From contig NZ_CP026952.1 of NCBI RefSeq assembly GCF_003065605.1, positions 3,100,001 through 3,164,000 on the forward strand: DNA of 64,000 bases, read 5' to 3'. Both the position numbers and the translations under genes were made by a program. The notes below the pieces were generated by a model, which was given only the letters and a program-made list of their open reading frames with translations, was not told the DNA's origin and made no database searches. The stretch is from Aeromicrobium chenweiae (lineage in GTDB: Bacteria; Actinomycetota; Actinomycetes; Propionibacteriales; Nocardioidaceae). This document shows positions 20,450-64,000 of this stretch, in pieces (position 1 is the stretch's first letter; every line of letters starts with the position of its first letter).

Positions 20450-20950
20450 GTGTCGACCGATGCCATCGTGCTGCTGAAGAACGACCACCAGGAGATCCGC
20501 AAGGTCTTCAAGGCCTTCGAGGAGGCCGGCGAGCAGGCCTACAAGACCAAGGGCCGGCTCGTCGACCAGATGATCGAGCTGCTGACGGTGCACACGTACA
20601 TCGAGAACGAGATCATGTACCCCCGCGTCCGCGACCTCCTCCCGGACCTGGAGGACGACGTGCTGGAGTCGTACGAGGAGCACCACGTCGCGGACGTCCT
20701 CGTGATGGAGCTGGCCGCCATGAAGCCCGACGCCGAGCGCTTCACGGCCAAGACCACCGTGCTGATCGAGAACGTCACGCACCACATGGACGAAGAGGAG
20801 CAGGACTGGTTCCCCAAGGTCCGCGAGGGCCTGAGCCGGACCGTCCTGCAGGAGATGGGTGCGGACATGATCGAGGCCAAGAAGACGGCTCCGCGCAGGC
20901 CCTCGCAGCCGAGCGCGCTCAAGAAGACCATCGACGCCGTCATCAAGTGA
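20450..20950 (+). CDS. Hemerythrin HHE domain protein
   Basis: This 166-residue four-helix-bundle protein probably binds a di-iron centre and senses or detoxifies oxygen, NO or peroxide. Iron ligands fit KNDHQEI (His), HTYIENEIMYP (His/Glu), YEEHHVADV (His) and HHMDEEEQDWFP (His/Glu). The last 25 residues are basic (KKTAPRRPSQPSALKK). The start is GTG with GAGGAGAG upstream. A general-stress-type promoter precedes it, and a 58-residue protein follows 28 bp later. Confidence 0.85.
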   Translation: MSTDAIVLLKNDHQEIRKVFKAFEEAGEQAYKTKGRLVDQMIELLTVHTYIENEIMYPRVRDLLPDLEDDVLESYEEHHVADVLVMELAAMKPDAERFTAKTTVLIENVTHHMDEEEQDWFPKVREGLSRTVLQEMGADMIEAKKTAPRRPSQPSALKKTIDAVIK

Positions 20951-25460: not shown

Positions 25461-27749
<2,289 letters not shown>

Positions 27750-34620: not shown

Positions 34621-36212
34621 TCAGCGCAGCGCGCCCCTCGTCACCCGGCGCACGCGAGCGTGAGCGATCGCCGCGCGGGCGGCGTTCATGCCCGGCGCGC
34701 CGTGCACCCCTCCCCCGGGGTGCGCCGACGCCGAGCCCAGGAAGAGGCCGCGAATGGGTGTCTCGGCCCGGCCCATGCCCGGCACCGGGCGGAAGATGAG
34801 CTCCTGGTGCAGCTGCGAGGTGCCACCGTTGATGGCGCCGCCGATGAGGTTGGCGTCGGCCCGCTCCAGCTCCTGCGGCCCCAGGACCCGCCGGCTGATG
34901 ATCTTGCTGCCGAATCCGGGAGCCAGCCGCTCGATGCGGGCCTGCATGCGGTCCGCGAACCGTTCGCAGTCGTCGCGGTCCCACGTGCCCTTGATGCCGT
35001 CGCCACCGCCGTCGGCGACCGACTGCTGCGGGACGTGCGTGTACGCCCACAGCGACTCGGTCCCGGCCGGCGAGCGGGTCGGGTCGGTGGTCGTCATCTG
35101 TCCCGCGAGCATGAACGGGGCCGCCGGGATCAACCGCGCGGAGATCTGGCCGAGGGCCTCGGTCATCTGCTCGACGGAGTCCGCGACGTGGAACGTCCCC
35201 GGCGCGTGCGGTGGTGCCGACTGCCACGGGATCGTGCCGTCGAGCGCCCAGTCGACCTTCACCGTCCCGGGGTCCAGGTCGAACGACTTCATCGACTTCA
35301 CGGTCCGCGGCGGGAGGTCGTCGTCGGCCACGAGACCGCCGTAGAGGTGGGGCGCCACGACGTCGGCGACGACGGCGCGCCGTGCGGCGTACCGCTCGCC
35401 GTTGGCCCGGACCGCGGTGGCCCGTCGACCGGTCACCTCGATCCTGGTCGCCTCGGCCGACAGCACGATGTCGCCGCCCAGCGACTCGAACCTGCGGGCC
35501 AGGGCGTGGGCGAGGCCGCCGGCGCCGCCCTCGGGCGCCGGGAAGCCGACGGTCTGGCCGAGCATCGACATCAGCACCCCCATCAGCCCCGAGCCGGGGG
35601 CGTTCAGGGGATGTCGGCGTGGCCGGCGTTGCCGGCGATGATGAGTCGCGGTGACTCACCACCGAAGCGCGACCGCCCGAGCTCGCTCGCCGGGGTCAGC
35701 ATCGTCTTGACGAAGTCGAGCCCGCCGACGCTGCGGAGCTTGGCGAGCGCGCCGAGACCGTTGCGGACCGGCGGGAACGGCGACAGCAGAGCCTTGACGA
35801 CCTGGTCGCCGATGCGGTCCCACTGACCGCACAGCTCGAGCCACGCCTCGCCGTCACCGGAGTGCGCCTGCTCGAACAGGTCGGCGGTCACCGTGCGGTC
35901 GCGGTGCAGGATCGCCCAGCTGCCGTCGGGCCGGGGATGGCCCAGCACGGCGGGGGCGTGCCGCCAGGTGAGGCCGTGGTTCTCCAGCTCGAACGACCGG
36001 ATCGTCGGCGACGCCTCGGACAGCGGGTAGAACGCGCTGAACGTGTCGTGGACGAAGTCCGGGTGGACGTCGCGTGAGCTCTTGACCGCTCCCCCGACCT
36101 CCGCCTGCGCCTCCAGGACGACGACCGACCAGCCTTGGTCGATCAGGTGGTTCGCTGCGACCAGCCCGTTGGGGCCGGCCCCGATGACGACTGCGTCGTA
36201 CGTCTTGGTCAC
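34621..36212 (-). pseudogene. Phytoene dehydrogenase-like FAD oxidoreductase, frameshifted
   Basis: The N-terminal half (from 36212) begins with the dinucleotide fold VVIGAGPNGLVAANHL and continues to GNAGHADIP, where a stop follows. At plus 35607-35610 the run has four G. One more restores L-N-A-P-G-S-G-L-M-G-V-L and joins the second half, giving about 530 residues. The C-terminal FAD motif GLFLGSASAHPGGGVHGAPGMNAA is intact. These are PYROXD2/CrtI-like enzymes of unknown substrate. Its ATG overlaps the stop of the truncated dehydrogenase gene. Confidence 0.82.
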
Positions 36213-36577
36213 GCTGCCCTCCCGGCGGCCGACTTGACCCGGGCGACCGCATTGCGTGCGATGCCGATGACAGGGTTGCCGACACCGCCGTGAAGGCTGT
36301 AGCCGGGCTCGTGGGACCGCAGGACGTTGCCCACGCGGTCACCGACCTGCAGGTCACCGGCCTCGGGACCGACCTCCTCGACGATGCCCATCGTCTCGTG
36401 CCCGAGGACGTCGCCGGGGTGGAGATACGGGCCGAGCACCGTGTAGAGGTGCAGGTCCGAGCCGCAGATCGCCGTCGAGGTGACCTTGATGATCGCGTCG
36501 TTCGGCTGCTCGATCCGCGGATCGGGGACCTCCTCCACCGACACGTTCTCCCTGCCCTGCCAGGTCAGCGCCAACAT
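36209..36577 (-). CDS. Truncated zinc alcohol dehydrogenase (GroES domain only)
   Basis: The 122 residues match the N-terminal catalytic domain of formaldehyde-dehydrogenase-like enzymes: EQPNDAIIKVTSTAICGSDLHLY with the catalytic zinc Cys, and GHETMGIVEEVG with His/Glu. After LQVGDRV the sequence jumps to RSHEPGYSLHGGVGNPVIGIARNAVARVKS. The structural zinc lobe and the whole NAD domain are absent, so it cannot be a normal dehydrogenase. The clean ATGA overlap suggests a stable short gene rather than a fresh break. Two complete relatives are at 52.0 and 54.7 kb. Confidence 0.7.
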   Translation of the reverse strand: MLALTWQGRENVSVEEVPDPRIEQPNDAIIKVTSTAICGSDLHLYTVLGPYLHPGDVLGHETMGIVEEVGPEAGDLQVGDRVGNVLRSHEPGYSLHGGVGNPVIGIARNAVARVKSAAGRAA

Positions 36578-38744: not shown

Positions 38745-38778
38745 CGTCGGCGACTTCCATGCCTGTCAGTCGCCGACG
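38745..38778 (-). terminator. Terminator of the manganese catalase operon
   Basis: Perfect 11-bp stem CGTCGGCGACT/AGTCGCCGACG with a 12-base loop, 18 bp after the last stop of the operon. No T tract. Confidence 0.6.
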
Positions 38779-38795: not shown

Positions 38796-39344
38796 CTACG
38801 AGACGTCGTTGCGGACGCCCTCGGCGGCCGACTGCCCCTCGTCCTTGACGTGCTGGGCCGACTCGGTGGCCGTGTCCTTCACGTCGGACGCGGCCTCGGC
38901 GGCCTTGCCCTTGAGGTCGTCGCCGACCTCCTGTGCGACCGACTTCGCGTGGTCGACCAGGGGCTGGCCCTGCTCCTTCGCGGTGTCGATCGCCTGTCCG
39001 GCGAGCCTGGCCTCGGCGTTGCTGGCCGGCATCAACGAGGACACGAGCCAGCCGGCGCCGAACGCGATCAGTCCCGCGGCCAGCGGATTGCCCTCGGCCC
39101 TGCGGGAGACCGCGCCAGCGGTGTCGGACAGGCTGCCGACGGCGGAGCCCGAGGCGTCCGACATCGAGCTGGCCGAGCCCATCACGCTGTCCTTGGCGCC
39201 GGCGATCCGGCCCTTGACGCTGTCGACGCGACGACCCACGACCCGGCCGGGGCTGACCCGGTCGGCGAGCGCGTCGAAGTTGCGTGACAGGTCCTCGCGG
39301 CTGCTCTCGATGTCATGCTCGATCACTTCTGGTTCTTTGCCCAT
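38796..39344 (-). CDS. DUF3618 family protein
   Basis: This 182-residue protein has the DUF3618 N-terminus IEHDIESSREDLSRNFDALADRVSP (residues about 7-33). A helical Ser/Ala/Gly-rich region, one hydrophobic segment (PLAAGLIAFGAGWLVSSLMP, about 88-107) and a long amphipathic LEA-like tail follow. Such proteins accompany phage-holin-X proteins in stress-linked envelope operons. Function is unknown. It overlaps the upstream holin-X gene by 22 bases. Confidence 0.78.
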   Translation of the reverse strand: MGKEPEVIEHDIESSREDLSRNFDALADRVSPGRVVGRRVDSVKGRIAGAKDSVMGSASSMSDASGSAVGSLSDTAGAVSRRAEGNPLAAGLIAFGAGWLVSSLMPASNAEARLAGQAIDTAKEQGQPLVDHAKSVAQEVGDDLKGKAAEAASDVKDTATESAQHVKDEGQSAAEGVRNDVS

Positions 39345-39727
39345 TGCACATCCTCCTTGAGGGTTTTCTGAGTCCGTTCGAGTGACGGGTCGACCGTCTT
39401 GAGACGTGAGCGGCCGAGGACGGCGAGCACCGCGGCGATGATGGCCCACACGACGAAGACGATCAGGGCGGCCCACTGCAGGTCCATGCCCTCGCCCAGC
39501 AGGTACATGACGAACAGCGACAGGAACAACAGCGTGAAGTAGCCCGCCACCGCCGCGCCGCCGAGCATGCCCGCTCCCTTGCCGGCCTTCGCGACCTCGG
39601 CCTTCGCCTCGGTCTTCGCCAGCTCCAGCTCGGAGCGGACCATGTTGCTCAGGTCCGACGCGATCTCGCCGACGATGTCACCGATCGACCGTTCGTCCTG
39701 GCCGGTGGGTGGCGTCTGCTCGGTCAC
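39323..39727 (-). CDS. Actinobacterial holin-X family (DUF1469) membrane protein
   Basis: This 134-residue protein begins with an amphipathic region (IGDIVGEIASDLSNMVRSELELAKTEAKAEV) and has two transmembrane helices (about 52-76 and 82-103) typical of phage holin superfamily III / DUF1469. No phage genes are near, so a lytic role is unlikely. It is flanked by DUF3618-type proteins with overlapping reading frames. Confidence 0.85.
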   Translation of the reverse strand: MTEQTPPTGQDERSIGDIVGEIASDLSNMVRSELELAKTEAKAEVAKAGKGAGMLGGAAVAGYFTLLFLSLFVMYLLGEGMDLQWAALIVFVVWAIIAAVLAVLGRSRLKTVDPSLERTQKTLKEDVQWAKNQK

Positions 39728-40503
39728 TGCCTCCCCCCGGTGTTCTGACCGCCCGGCACGACGTCCGAGGTGGTGATGGGTTCTCCGGTCGGCGGGGCGT
39801 ACGTGGGCGCAGGCGCCGACGCCGTCGTCATCGGTGCCGTCGTCGGCGCTGCGGAGCCGGTGTCGCTCGAGCCCTGCGAGGCCTTGGCACCACGGGTCAT
39901 GCGTCCGGCCAGGATGCCGGCGATGCCCGCACCGGCCAGGAACGCACCGGGACGACGACGGGCGAAGGCCCGGACGTCCTCGACGAGGTCCTTCGGCTGG
40001 CGGCCGTCGAGGTGCGAGCTGAGCTCGTGGGTCTTGTCGGCCAGTTGCTGCGCGAGCTGGGTGACGGTGCCTCGCACGTCGGCGCCGTCGACCAGGCCGT
40101 CGATCTCGTCGGCGAGCTCGCTGAGCTTGGACGTGAGGCCCTTGAGCTGCGTCTTGGACTGTTCGTCGAGCTGCGACTTGAGGTCGGCGAGCAGGTCGGT
40201 GGCCTTCTCCTTGGCCTCCGACGCCACCTTGCCGGCCTCCTCCATGGCCGTGTCCGCGACGCTCGAGGCGTGCTCGGACGCACTGCCGAGGGCCTCCTGC
40301 GCGGTCTCCTTGGCGGAGCCGCCTGAACTGCCTGAGCCGCCTGAACTGCCCGAGCTGCCGGACGAGTCCGGCGTCGGGGGCGCCGGCGGGGTGGGGGTGA
40401 TCCCGGCGTCGTGGGCGAGCTCGTCACCGATCGGCGACGAGGACCCCGGCAGGTCCGAGCTGGTGGTGAGAGGGTCTGTCTCTCCGTACGGGGGTGTGGT
40501 CAT
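39724..40503 (-). CDS. Helical envelope protein with low-complexity N-terminus
   Basis: This 259-residue protein has a Ser/Gly/Pro-rich first third (G-S-S-G-S-S-G-G-S-G-S-S-G-G-S). Long amphipathic helices (ETAQEALGSASEHASSVADTAMEEAG and KEKATDLLADLKSQLDEQSKTQLKGL) follow, then one short hydrophobic segment (PGAFLAGAGIAGILAGRM, about 195-212) and a Pro/Thr/Ala tail. It resembles LEA-like or apolipoprotein-like envelope proteins. It overlaps the holin-X gene by ATGA. Confidence 0.7.
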   Translation of the reverse strand: MTTPPYGETDPLTTSSDLPGSSSPIGDELAHDAGITPTPPAPPTPDSSGSSGSSGGSGSSGGSAKETAQEALGSASEHASSVADTAMEEAGKVASEAKEKATDLLADLKSQLDEQSKTQLKGLTSKLSELADEIDGLVDGADVRGTVTQLAQQLADKTHELSSHLDGRQPKDLVEDVRAFARRRPGAFLAGAGIAGILAGRMTRGAKASQGSSDTGSAAPTTAPMTTASAPAPTYAPPTGEPITTSDVVPGGQNTGGRQ

Positions 40504-40547
40504 GTGTCCTCCATCGTGGGGTGGTCAGTCGTGTCGGTGCCCGACGC

Positions 40548-40742
40548 TCATCCGTGGGTCACGGGTGAGCGGAGGCCTGGGTCGTACGCGGCCAGTCGTG
40601 CGAGCGAGCAGCGGGCTCGGTAGACGCCGCATCCTGCGAGCGCGATCGCCAGGACGATCCCCGTGCCGCCGGCTGCCAGGAGCAGCGACACGAAGAGGGT
40701 CGTGACGAGCACGCTGAAGAAGCCGTCGCCCACCCGGCTCAT
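40548..40742 (-). CDS. Small membrane protein (64 residues)
   Basis: The ATG at 40742 overlaps the manganese catalase stop (ATGA). One long hydrophobic stretch (FFSVLVTTLFVSLLLAAGGTGIVLAIALAGCGV, residues 8-40) may form one or two helices, followed by a basic Cys-containing tail. It has no known family. Coupling to the catalase gene supports expression. Confidence 0.65.
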   Translation of the reverse strand: MSRVGDGFFSVLVTTLFVSLLLAAGGTGIVLAIALAGCGVYRARCSLARLAAYDPGLRSPVTHG

Positions 40743-41602
40743 TTCAGCGCGTCCTTCGCCTTGTCGATAAGGCCTTTGGTCTCCATCAACGGGTTCGTGC
40801 CGTACAGGCGCGGATCTCCGGGAGCCAGGTCGGTGTGCTCGCCGTGCGCCTGGATCAGCGCGCTCTGGAAGTCGCCGCGGCCGTCGGGCGCCGGTCCGCT
40901 GGCCCAGCGACCCTCCGTCGCGGCCTCGCCGTCCGAGGCCTGGATGAACACGCGGGAGAACTCGTCGAACTCCTCCTCCAGCGGGAACGCCTCGGGTGTC
41001 GGCAGCCCGTCGAGGCCATCGGCCTTGAGCTCCTCGATCGCCGAGAGCCACTGCATCTGGTGCATGTGGTCACGCGTCGTGAGGAAGCGGATGAGGTCCT
41101 TCATGCCCGGGTCGTCGGTCATGTGGAACAGGCGCGCCACCTGGAGGCGGCCCTGCATCTCGGCCGTCACGTTGAGATGGAAGTCGGCCATCAGGTTGCC
41201 GCTGGCCGTGACGAAGGCGCCGGACCACGGGATGCCGTTGCTGTCGTGCGGGTACGCGCCGCCACCGTTGACGATGGTGTGCTGCGGGTTCGCCGCACCG
41301 AACTCGGCGGCCTGCGTCGAGCCGGTGGTGTCGTCGGCGGACATCGGGGGCGCCTTGTCGAGCAGCTGGTCGATCGCGGTCACGATCATCTCGACGTGGC
41401 TGAGCTCCTCGGTGCCGATGGCCATCAGCATGTCCTTGTACTTGCCGGGAAGACGCGCGTTCCAGCCCTGGTAGAGGTACTGCATCGCGACAGTCATCTC
41501 GCCCCACTTGCCGCCGAGGACCTCCTGGAACTTCCTGGCGAACGCCGGGTCCGGTCCCTCGGGCCGTGCTGCGAACTGGGGTGCCTTCTGGTGCGTGAAC
41601 AT
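40739..41602 (-). CDS. Manganese (non-haem) catalase
   Basis: This 287-residue di-manganese catalase breaks down hydrogen peroxide without haem. The four-helix bundle ligands fit EMTVAMQYLYQGWN (Glu), GTEELSHVEMI (Glu, His), NVTAEMQGRLQVARLFHMTDDPGMKDLIRFLTTRDHMHQ (Glu, His). The start M-F-T-H-Q-K is family-typical. It is the first of five overlapping or closely spaced genes and has a stress-type promoter. It is unrelated to the KatE at 25.5 kb, so the cell has two peroxide-removal systems. Confidence 0.93.
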   Translation of the reverse strand: MFTHQKAPQFAARPEGPDPAFARKFQEVLGGKWGEMTVAMQYLYQGWNARLPGKYKDMLMAIGTEELSHVEMIVTAIDQLLDKAPPMSADDTTGSTQAAEFGAANPQHTIVNGGGAYPHDSNGIPWSGAFVTASGNLMADFHLNVTAEMQGRLQVARLFHMTDDPGMKDLIRFLTTRDHMHQMQWLSAIEELKADGLDGLPTPEAFPLEEEFDEFSRVFIQASDGEAATEGRWASGPAPDGRGDFQSALIQAHGEHTDLAPGDPRLYGTNPLMETKGLIDKAKDALK

Positions 41603-41649: not shown

Positions 41650-41674
41650 CTACCCGCCTCCCTCCGCCTGATAC
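41650..41674 (-). promoter_or_regulatory. Candidate SigB/SigF-type promoter for Mn-catalase operon
   Basis: GTAT-N15-GGGTAG on the minus strand lies 48 bp before the catalase ATG. It fits GNNT-N14-16-GGGTA. Confidence 0.6.
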
Positions 41675-42702: not shown

Positions 42703-43368
42703 ATGCAGTCGTTGAGCGTCATCGTCCGGCAGAAGCGCGACCACGCCCGCCTGGACGAGCTGCTGCAGCAGCTCGAGGAGTCACGGCGGCACCAGGAGGA
42801 CGACCTCCTGCGGGAGATCTACCGCCTGGTGTTCCCCCACGCGTTCGCCGAGGAAGGGGTGCTGTGGCCGGTGATGCGCCGGGTCCTGCCGGACGGTCAG
42901 GCGCTGACGCTGGAGGTCGAGCAGGAGCACCAGGAGGTCAACGAGCTCGTCGCCCAGATCGACCGGCTGCCCGCCGGCGACCCCGAGCGCGACGCCCGGA
43001 TCCGACGCCTCGTGGAGGTCCTGAAGGAGGACGTCCACGACGAGGAGGACGTCCTGCTCCCGCGCCTGGAGTCCAGGCTCTCGGACCGCCAGCTGCAGGC
43101 GTTGGGCCTCGCGTGGGAGGTGGTGCGCCGCACCGCGCCGACCCGGGCCCACCCCGTCGTGTCGCGCCGGCCCCCCGGCAACACCACGTCTGCACTCCCG
43201 CTCTCGATCATCGACCGCTCCCGCGACCGGCTGGACGCGATGGCCTCACGCGGCACCCGGCCCCAGGCGGCCCGCTCGGCGAGCCAGCGCCTGGGAACGC
43301 TGGCGACCCGGCTTGAGCACGTCCCCCTGTTCACCCGCGGGGAGGATCCGTCGACGTCCCGTACCTGA
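42703..43368 (+). CDS. Hemerythrin HHE domain protein (second copy)
   Basis: This 221-residue protein has an N-terminal four-helix hemerythrin domain: QKRDHARLDELL (His), FPHAFAEEGVLWPVM (His, Glu), EQEHQEVNELV (His), VHDEEDVLLPRL (His, Glu). It is shorter at the first loop than the copy at 20.5 kb. The last 80 residues are basic, Arg/Ser/Pro-rich and probably disordered. CAGGAGG precedes the ATG. It is divergent from the stress sigma gene, with a matching promoter. Confidence 0.85.
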   Translation: MQSLSVIVRQKRDHARLDELLQQLEESRRHQEDDLLREIYRLVFPHAFAEEGVLWPVMRRVLPDGQALTLEVEQEHQEVNELVAQIDRLPAGDPERDARIRRLVEVLKEDVHDEEDVLLPRLESRLSDRQLQALGLAWEVVRRTAPTRAHPVVSRRPPGNTTSALPLSIIDRSRDRLDAMASRGTRPQAARSASQRLGTLATRLEHVPLFTRGEDPSTSRT

Positions 43369-43373
43369 GCCTC

Positions 43374-43398
43374 GATTCAAGCCGGCGGCTCCGGGTAC
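43374..43398 (+). promoter_or_regulatory. Possible SigB/SigF-type promoter for GAF-ANTAR gene
   Basis: GATT-N15-GGGTAC, 30 bp before the GTG. The -35 element is weak, so this is the least certain of the plus-strand candidates. Confidence 0.4.
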
Positions 43399-43428
43399 AG
43401 GGGCCGTCGACTACGAGGAGGTGGTGAC

Positions 43429-44115
43429 GTGGACGTCGCCAGGATGCTGGCGGACATGGCCGTCGAGCTGGAGCAGGACGGCAACCCCACCACGATGCTG
43501 GACCGGGTCAGCCACTACGCACGACTGGTGCTGGACGCCGACGACGCCGGCATCATGCGCGTGCGCAGCCGGTCGCACGTGGAGACGCCCGCCGCCACCA
43601 CCTCGCGGGTGGACCAGGCCCACCAGCTGCAGGTCCAGTTCGACGAGGGACCGTGCCTCGACGCGATCGAAGGCCGCGCGACGTACCGCTCGGACGACGT
43701 GAAGGCGGACCTGCGCTGGCCCAAGTGGGGGCCTGCCACCGCTGAGCTCGGCATCCGCTCGGCCCTGGGCGTCCGCCTCGCCACGCGTGACCGCGGCTAC
43801 GGCTCTCTGGACGTGTACGCCGACCGGCCCAGCGCCTTCACGCGGGCCGACGAGGAGATCGTCGAGATGCTGGCCGCACACGCGACCGCCGCCTACGCCG
43901 CCGCCGAGCGTGCAGAGGGGCTGTCCAGCGCCCTCGACAGCCGGACCGTCATCGGTCAGGCGCAGGGCATCCTCATGCAGAAGTTCGACATCGACGCCGA
44001 CGCCGCCTTCGACTTCCTCAAGCGGATCTCCCAGCACCAGAACGAGCGGCTCCACGCGGTCGCCGAGGCGATCGTCGTCCAGCGCGAGTCCAACGCCCGG
44101 CCCTCCGACGGCTGA
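43429..44115 (+). CDS. GAF and ANTAR domain regulator
   Basis: This 228-residue protein has an N-terminal GAF sensor domain (about residues 10-150) and a C-terminal ANTAR RNA-binding domain (SRTVIGQAQGILMQKFDIDADAAFDFLKRISQHQN). ANTAR proteins bind paired hairpins in nascent RNA and prevent termination. The GTG has GAGGAGG nearby. It is convergent with a second GAF-ANTAR gene at 44180. Target and ligand are unknown. Confidence 0.88.
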   Translation: MDVARMLADMAVELEQDGNPTTMLDRVSHYARLVLDADDAGIMRVRSRSHVETPAATTSRVDQAHQLQVQFDEGPCLDAIEGRATYRSDDVKADLRWPKWGPATAELGIRSALGVRLATRDRGYGSLDVYADRPSAFTRADEEIVEMLAAHATAAYAAAERAEGLSSALDSRTVIGQAQGILMQKFDIDADAAFDFLKRISQHQNERLHAVAEAIVVQRESNARPSDG

Positions 44116-44179
44116 TAGGACACCCCGTAACGGGTAAGTCATCAGCACAGCGGCGGACGCGCCTAGGCACGAACGCCGC

Positions 44180-44848
44180 TCAGGTGCCGGGGTTCAAACG
44201 AGAGTCCCCGGCACCGACCCCGTGCTCCTGCAGGAGGGCGCGCGCGGCCTCGACCAGGGGCACGCCCAGGACGTGCGACCGGCGCTGGAGCATCGAGAGG
44301 GCCTGCTCGGCAACCATGGAGTGCCGCCCCATGAGGACGCCCTGCGCCTGCCCGATCGTCGCCCGGGACTCGAGCGCGGAGGTCAGCCTCTCGATGTGCT
44401 GGGTGTACCGAAGGGCGATGGCCGCATGGCTCGCGAGGAGCTGCCCGGTCTCCACGTCGTCAGGGGTGAAGGGGCGGCCCCCGGCGCGGTAGACGTTGAG
44501 GGACCCGAGGATCGCCCCTCCGGCGTCCAGCTCGGACGACACGACGCGCTCCAGCCCCATGGCTGCGGCACGAGGTCCCCACTCGGGCCAGCGCACGTCG
44601 CGGGCGATGTCGTTGGAGAGGATGAAGCCGGGGCTGAGCTCGGCCTTCGCCCACGGACCTTCCCGCAGCAGGCGCTGCAGGGAGTCGGCACCACGCACCA
44701 CCTCGGTGGTCGGACCGACGGTCTCGAACCCGTCGCCGCGCCTCAGCGTGATCCCCACGTGGGCGGTGTCGAACGTCCCTGCCACGAAGTCGACGACATC
44801 GGCGACGGACTGGACGAACGCGGATGCCTCAGGCTGCTGGGTCCTCAT
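44180..44848 (-). CDS. GAF and ANTAR domain regulator (second copy)
   Basis: This 222-residue GAF (about residues 10-155) plus ANTAR (SRATIGQAQGVLMGRHSMVAEQALSMLQRRSHVLG) protein is similar in layout to the convergent copy but clearly diverged. It starts nine bases after the DoxX stop on the same strand, making it the last gene of the dioxygenase operon. That placement suggests a regulatory role for the operon rather than for the stress region. Short inverted repeats AGCGGCG/CGCCGCT (44149-44180) lie at its 3' end. Confidence 0.87.
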   Translation of the reverse strand: MRTQQPEASAFVQSVADVVDFVAGTFDTAHVGITLRRGDGFETVGPTTEVVRGADSLQRLLREGPWAKAELSPGFILSNDIARDVRWPEWGPRAAAMGLERVVSSELDAGGAILGSLNVYRAGGRPFTPDDVETGQLLASHAAIALRYTQHIERLTSALESRATIGQAQGVLMGRHSMVAEQALSMLQRRSHVLGVPLVEAARALLQEHGVGAGDSRLNPGT

Positions 44849-63537: not shown

Positions 63538-63960
63538 TCAGTCTAATGGTCGCCTCAGCTCGGCCGTCACCCGCAGTCCCTGCTGGTCGTCGACCGTCCA
63601 CGCGTCGCACAGCTGGTCCACGATGGCCAGTCCCCTGCCGCGCACCCCCGCGCGCGTGAGCTCCAGCGCCTGCAGCTCGGCGGACTTCCCGCCGTCGCAG
63701 ACGCTGATGCGCAGCACGTCGTCGGCGATGCACCAGGAGACGTCGAGGGTGTCGTCGCCGCTCGGCCGGCCGTGCTCCAGTCCGTTGGCGGCGAGCTCCC
63801 CGAGCACGAGCTCGGCGTCGATGACGAAGGACTCGCCGAAGCCGAGACCCTCGAGCTCGTCCACCAGCCGGCGTCGCGCGACCCCGGCGCTCGTGGCGTC
63901 GAACGGCAGCCGCAGGCTCGTGCGGGGGTCGTCGTCGGCATGCGTGTGGGGTGCGGGCAC
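63538..63960 (-). CDS. RsbW-like serine kinase/ATP-binding protein
   Basis: This 140-residue GHKL ATPase of the anti-sigma-factor type has the N-box LVLGELAANGLEHG and G1/G2-like VCDGGKSAELQALELTRAGVRGRGLAIVDQLCDAWTV. The GTG at 63960 is used as start, but the frame stays open to the window edge (reading V-V-E-Q-A-C-S before it), so the gene may begin outside. Such proteins bind a sigma factor or phosphorylate an antagonist. Its partner is not in view. Confidence 0.75.
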   Translation of the reverse strand: MPAPHTHADDDPRTSLRLPFDATSAGVARRRLVDELEGLGFGESFVIDAELVLGELAANGLEHGRPSGDDTLDVSWCIADDVLRISVCDGGKSAELQALELTRAGVRGRGLAIVDQLCDAWTVDDQQGLRVTAELRRPLD

Positions 63961-64000
63961 CGAGCACGCCTGCTCGACGACGTTGTCCGGGACGCTCTCC

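Follow-up and report, generated by a model that had tools for sequence, protein, structure and literature searches.

YqjD/YqjE-like gene modules are widespread and stress-induced, and they are without an agreed function. In Escherichia coli, yqjD-yqjE-yqjK encodes a small helical membrane-associated protein of the DUF883 family, a PF07332 protein and a small third protein, YqjK, from genes that lie close together or overlap. According to the parts of the published reports available to us, PA3040-3042 of Pseudomonas aeruginosa encodes a DUF883 protein, a YqjE-like protein and a third protein with an unknown domain and is induced by envelope stress and in stationary phase (PMC11302039); expression of the SigB-type factor sigma-H of Actinoplanes, which has the motif GTTT/GGGTA, raises ACSP50_4921-4923, annotated as DUF3618, Holin-X and unknown (PMC11205660); the manganese (Mn) catalase of Mycobacterium smegmatis has a reduced level when sigF is mutated (PMC4694148); and this catalase, MSMEG_6213, has a GTTT-N15-GGGTAT box and is higher in repeatedly spray-dried cells (PMC5445863). 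The DUF883 protein ElaB preserves membrane integrity in E. coli during oxidative stress, as the available part of a further report states (PMC6389858). Here, a five-gene array of Aeromicrobium chenweiae that begins with a Mn catalase gene and ends with a trio of genes resembling such modules was analysed within a stretch of 64,000 nucleotides (the window; contig NZ_CP026952.1, positions 3,100,001 to 3,164,000), taken from a genome of 3.72 Mb in a single contig. Among open-licence PMC texts, judged by titles and the beginnings of abstracts, no paper was found in which Mn catalase is connected with an operon of the PF07332/DUF3618 kind.

The array is predicted, with a probability of about 0.68, to be a general-stress operon of a SigB/SigF-type polymerase, in which the removal of peroxide is coupled with a membrane module of YqjD/YqjE-like type. 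A first-pass annotation of this DNA had described a five-gene minus-strand operon with three overlapping junctions and one 44-bp gap; all five genes were present, and their coordinates bore out the three overlaps (4, 4 and 22 bp) and the gap. The genes and the elements around them are the following:

40739..41602, minus strand: Mn catalase, 287 amino acids, gene 1 of the array (PF05067; NCBIfam ManCatBAC)
40548..40742, minus strand: 64-amino-acid hydrophobic protein, with a 4-bp overlap with the catalase stop and no match in the Pfam and NCBIfam scans
39724..40503, minus strand: 259-amino-acid helical protein, first gene of the trio, with the 44-bp gap on its 5' side
39323..39727, minus strand: PF07332 membrane protein (YqjE family, 'Holin-X'), GTG start, with a 4-bp overlap with the helical-protein gene
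38796..39344, minus strand: DUF3618 protein (PF12277), final gene, with a 22-bp overlap with the PF07332 gene
41650..41674, minus strand: SigB/SigF-like box GTAT-N15-GGGTAG, an 8/10 match to GTTT/GGGTAT
38745..38778, minus strand: hairpin after the last gene, with a perfect 11-bp stem and a 12-nt loop
41730..42509, minus strand: gene for a sigma factor of SigB/F/G-like type, lying 127 bp upstream of the operon (TIGR02980, expectation value (E) 5.8e-50)

The 22-bp overlap presumes that the DUF3618 protein starts at the ATG behind AAGGAGGA; a simple gene caller chose instead the GTG at 39326, which gives a 4-bp overlap.

The trio resembles yqjD-yqjE-yqjK in its small helical membrane-associated protein, PF07332 protein and small third protein and in its close or overlapping genes, whereas the E. 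coli first protein belongs to DUF883 and that of the window does not, the third is YqjK in E. coli and DUF3618 in the window, and the annotated E. coli stretch has no catalase. PA3040-3042 shares the helical membrane-associated first, the YqjE-like second and a further third protein, but its first and third families differ from those of the window, and catalase is not mentioned in the part of the text examined (PMC11302039). ACSP50_4921-4923 is similar in having DUF3618, Holin-X and a further protein under consecutive locus tags, of which 4923 may correspond to the helical protein. MSMEG_6213 resembles the window locus as a SigF-dependent Mn catalase gene, and the adjacent locus number, MSMEG_6212, belongs to a hemerythrin gene; unlike in the window, a membrane trio beside it is unreported in the text examined.

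The full five-gene order was found in four genomes (G000, G063, G130 and locus L046 of an Aeromicrobium metagenome-assembled genome), three of them besides the window genome. Since the four operon catalases fall in one clade (support 0.959), one fusion is the simplest account, and the array reads as two older units, a pair of catalase and small membrane protein and the trio, which were fused in one Aeromicrobium clade. The four membrane genes had been taken as one group, of which only the last three held together as an older module; the 64-amino-acid gene goes with the catalase. The order helical protein/PF07332/DUF3618 was kept, with no catalase directly in front, in 16/16 other module loci fetched, which had been picked for encoding the helical protein, and the trio usually stands alone.

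The pairing of catalase and membrane module is wider than the local Aeromicrobium fusion. In G183 and G209 the trio precedes the catalase on the same strand, with gaps of 112 and 88 bp; in G398 the two units are divergent across 452 bp; and in G356, G120 and G143 the catalase lies 5-7 kb from the trio. Together with G000, G063 and G130, and as read from coordinates, these make nine of the 43 genomes holding both units in which they are at most 10 kb apart, compared with 0.18 under random placement; outside the genus of the window the units were linked in 6/39 genomes (0.16 expected). The linked catalases are spread over three parts of a midpoint-rooted catalase tree, from which L023, L196, L203, L209, L210 and catalase calls of at most 200 amino acids were omitted. 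The two units also co-occur. Within a family sample of 149 genomes, catalase was present in 20 and the helical protein in 51, the latter in 14/20 genomes with catalase vs 37/129 without (p 5e-4). The helical-protein profile matched in 72/344 genomes of the class, and the protein was found in 43/62 catalase-bearing genomes, in G245 by a weak partial match only and in G337 (L201) by a profile match at a gene that the gene caller had missed. The class-level co-occurrence (p 1e-9) comes from a table that merges two non-identical samples (393 and 344 genomes) and in which the other 23 genomes with catalase are all entered as module-less, which biases it against association. The first-pass annotation had linked the peroxide scavenger to membrane-shaping proteins in a joint desiccation or envelope-stress response; co-occurrence and proximity in other lineages favour the link, while membrane shaping, a function of both units together that goes beyond common control, and a role in desiccation are conjectural. 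For desiccation, the nearest evidence is the rise of MSMEG_6213 in M. smegmatis after repeated spray-drying (PMC5445863).

Among plasmids, 198 records carry Mn catalase, and the neighbourhoods of seven were examined. A Mesorhizobium ciceri plasmid (L212) has, on one strand, Mn catalase, a membrane-type gene with a DUF1206 annotation, a PF07332 gene (7.7e-24) two genes behind the catalase, and a hypothetical gene, possibly an independent pairing in Alphaproteobacteria. A DUF883_C gene lies 1.8 kb from the Mn catalase of a Paracoccus marcusii plasmid, and in the incomplete gene tables of the other five neither a PF07332 nor a DUF883 gene was listed.

The main rival explanation is that unrelated members of a SigB/SigF regulon gather in stress islands, where neighbouring ones sometimes come to share a transcript, so that co-expression is real and there is no joint mechanism; it comes close to an even chance without quite reaching it. 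What keeps it strong is the company of hemerythrin and GAF-ANTAR genes, which stand near the window catalase and beside the Mn catalase of a Rhodococcus plasmid, with hemerythrin near the catalase also in L022, L043, L131 and L132; the predominantly solitary trio fits it as well. However, the presence of both gene orders and of a divergent pair, in different catalase clades, is more specific than an island requires, as are the tight overlaps of the Aeromicrobium form, and co-occurrence across genomes is not explained by position alone, though lifestyle could account for it.

A stress-type promoter and a perfect terminal hairpin had been claimed as the ends of the operon. Boxes like GTTT-N14-17-GGGTA were found 72-78 nt before the catalase start in all four operon loci (motif criterion GTTT-N14-19-GGGTA), and in G183 and G209 the trio is preceded by GTTT-N15-GGGTAT. 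Three of the four operon loci lack a separate SigB-like box for the trio; L046 has one, in a 95-bp gap before the helical-protein gene. On its own the window box is not specific, as 13/100 shuffles of the upstream region score as well (12-26/100 across the four operon loci), and the promoter evidence is plausible but weak. A scan for sigma-70-type promoters found none. At the other end, a strong hairpin starts 11-26 nt past the DUF3618 stop in 4/4 operon loci, a count made with no control set; the four hairpins are three unrelated sequences, one of them followed by TTTTCC. The stem of the window hairpin is indeed perfect (fold z -4.26), but it has no U-run, and the terminator scan did not list it. 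The recurrence of the array in three other genomes, with hairpin and box in 4/4, speaks for the operon claim, the single transcript being a prediction. A sigma factor gene adjoins the catalase in all four operon loci, divergently in one; the product of the window gene is possibly the regulator of the operon and scores below the TIGR02980 cut-off (170.1 vs 234.35 bits).

Several observations weigh against a coupled stress operon. In G019, of the same genus, catalase and trio lie 155 kb apart, and in 34/43 genomes with both units no linkage within 10 kb is visible on the contigs; the linkage and co-occurrence probabilities ignore shared ancestry. The SigB/SigF-like box was present in 12/43 catalase upstream regions (p 0.03) and 8/21 module upstream regions (p 0.011) vs 63/418 controls, counted with the near-duplicates L023, L209 and L210 omitted, and in none of the Geodermatophilaceae-type catalase loci (L027-L041). 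Sequence comparison does not place the helical protein in DUF883. Among the described systems, PA3040-3042 is associated, in the part of the report consulted, with biofilm, envelope stress and tobramycin rather than with peroxide (PMC11302039), and ACSP50_4921-4923 comes without a reported catalase, the word 'catalase' being absent from the main text (PMC11205660).

In the general-stress operon as we picture it, stress (stationary phase, osmotic, drying or oxidative) would cause all five genes to be transcribed as a unit from the GGGTA box, under a sigma factor that is perhaps the product of the adjoining gene. The catalase would break down H2O2 in the cytoplasm, and the 64-amino-acid protein, an accessory of this catalase lineage, would be made by translational coupling. 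The trio proteins would work jointly on the cytoplasmic side of the membrane to protect or remodel it, a role like the one proposed for ElaB/YqjD and YqjE in E. coli. With both units joined, the capacities to remove peroxide and to protect the membrane would keep a constant proportion; a physical coupling of the catalase with the membrane module is speculative. The ElaB result offers the nearest hint of why peroxide removal and a membrane module belong together. If the trio repeatedly joins a catalase in different orders, membrane peroxide damage becomes a testable candidate for what YqjD/YqjE-like modules guard against.

The first protein of the trio has disordered ends and a conserved C-terminal segment, RRRPGxFLxGAxxAGxxAGR (27-row alignment), and no family exceeded its curated cut-off in the Pfam and NCBIfam scans. 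The AlphaFold model was all-helix with low confidence (predicted local distance difference test score (pLDDT) 50), and, like that of the 64-amino-acid protein, it was too poor for a fold search. Membership in DUF883 was rejected: PF05957 gave 9 bits vs a cut-off of 25.4 and PF19029 was unlisted, neither family was listed for four relatives, and hhalign aligned the protein with DUF883 over 31 C-terminal glycine-rich columns only (probability 59.5, 13% identity). Because of this failed test and short alignment, we propose that the trio may work like a YqjD/YqjE-type module, and identity with such a module is not claimed. Membership in a late embryogenesis abundant (LEA) family was also rejected, as LEA_4 (PF02987) was absent from the matches of the window protein even when E values up to 5 were admitted and appeared below the cut-off in 2/4 relatives (0.018 and 1.1). 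The strongest hydropathy period of the alignment was 3.75, obtained with no shuffle control, where the LEA criterion is an amphipathic helix with a period near 11/3, together with disordered ends. The earlier label 'LEA-like' is thus descriptive of the helical protein, while the family match to LEA_4 failed.

The other two proteins of the trio matched their families above the cut-offs: PF07332 with E 2.3e-36 and 124.8 bits (cut-off 28.4), with a hydropathy peak of 3.08, and PF12277 with E 3e-13 and 50.2 bits (cut-off 24.9), the DUF3618 protein having in addition a sub-threshold apolipoprotein-like match (E 3.5e-6). The term 'holin-X', also used at first pass, is Pfam's label for PF07332, and its hint of lysis is misleading, as YqjE of E. 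coli K-12 falls in the same family (E 3.5e-21). That label is the sole support for a phage-derived lysis/holin system with a captured catalase, an origin that is highly improbable given this shared family and a trio that is widespread and chromosomal. No endolysin gene was seen among the annotated neighbours, for which no phage-family scan was run; the adjoining genes covered by the Pfam scan belong to sigma factor, phosphatase, hydratase and hemerythrin families.

The catalase matched PF05067 with E 9.7e-90 and 300.8 bits (cut-off 27) and NCBIfam ManCatBAC (NF052557) with 381.9 bits, above the cut-off of 350. Its residues E35, E66, H69, E148 and H181, which we take to be the Mn ligands, in role and numbering alike, align with identical residues of the solved Mn catalase 1jku; R147, adjoining E148, is replaced by alanine in the window catalase. 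These matches place the enzyme in the bacterial Mn catalase family, with the metal-binding residues kept. Among the operon carriers the catalase proteins are 97-99.7% identical, and the neighbouring proteins 53-92%. The fourfold sites of the catalase genes nevertheless differ by 0.28-0.43, and the ratio of nonsynonymous to synonymous substitution rates (dN/dS) is 0.011-0.055; the near-identity is therefore attributed to strong constraint, and a recent swap of the catalase gene, which was considered, is not needed.

The 64-amino-acid gene belongs with the catalase and not with the trio. A convincing copy was present in 3/149 family genomes. Its product has a hydropathy peak of 2.3 and was modelled by AlphaFold as one long helix at residues 4-53 (mean pLDDT 67.5). 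It was considered whether this protein, alone or with the trio, tethers the catalase to the membrane near a respiratory source of peroxide, which is unlikely. In keeping with tethering, a small hydrophobic coding-like open reading frame (ORF) lies directly behind the catalase in 19/24 testable loci of the window catalase group (at least 64.5% identity), compared with 1/35 more distant catalase loci and 63/727 control genes. This test omitted 19 loci repeating genomes held as longer loci, as well as L023, which is close to L117 (identity not established) and carries the same kind of 43-amino-acid ORF; the count of 24 also sets aside L203, which matches L039 identically, and L032, whose contig stops 99 bp past the catalase. 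The 4-bp overlap with the catalase recurs in seven Aeromicrobium-type loci that pass, plus L022, which is below the coding filter. The Geodermatophilaceae-type loci (L027-L041) encode a conserved two-helix-like protein of 59-108 amino acids, starting 67-142 bp behind the Mn catalase. The small proteins of these two groups have no detectable homology (hhalign probability 0.1), so that common position and type are shown and common descent is not, and the matches come mostly from one family and are not independent. The 64-amino-acid gene also evolves much faster (dN/dS 0.31-0.69, six pairs) than the catalase gene, which speaks against tethering. It is equally doubtful that Actinobacteria repeatedly build a joint unit of Mn catalase and YqjE-type trio in which, for this catalase lineage, the small protein keeps the catalase at the membrane and peroxide is thereby removed beside the bilayer that the trio guards. 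A catalase-linked small membrane protein would be a target for testing membrane placement of a soluble catalase.

Other features of the window were recorded. A hemerythrin gene and two regulator-like genes lie beside the operon at 42703-44848, the same company as that of the Rhodococcus plasmid Mn catalase; one of the two regulator-like genes is GAF-ANTAR by Pfam, and the other was grouped with it by clustering. A second, heme-type long catalase (PF00199 with a C-terminal domain) is encoded at 25461-27749 on the plus strand; a short-chain dehydrogenase gene lies upstream of it, and a hemerythrin gene at 20450-20950. On the minus strand, a zinc-type alcohol dehydrogenase gene (36209-36577) is cut to 122 amino acids and holds ADH_N only, G130 and G063 having full-length copies at the corresponding place. 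A flavin adenine dinucleotide (FAD) oxidoreductase on the same strand (34621-36212) was called in two pieces where G130 has a single 1596-bp gene, which would reflect a frameshift, a stop or a sequencing error. At 63538-63999 (minus strand), reaching the window edge, is encoded an RsbW-like ATPase domain protein (HATPase_c_2), possibly an anti-sigma factor.

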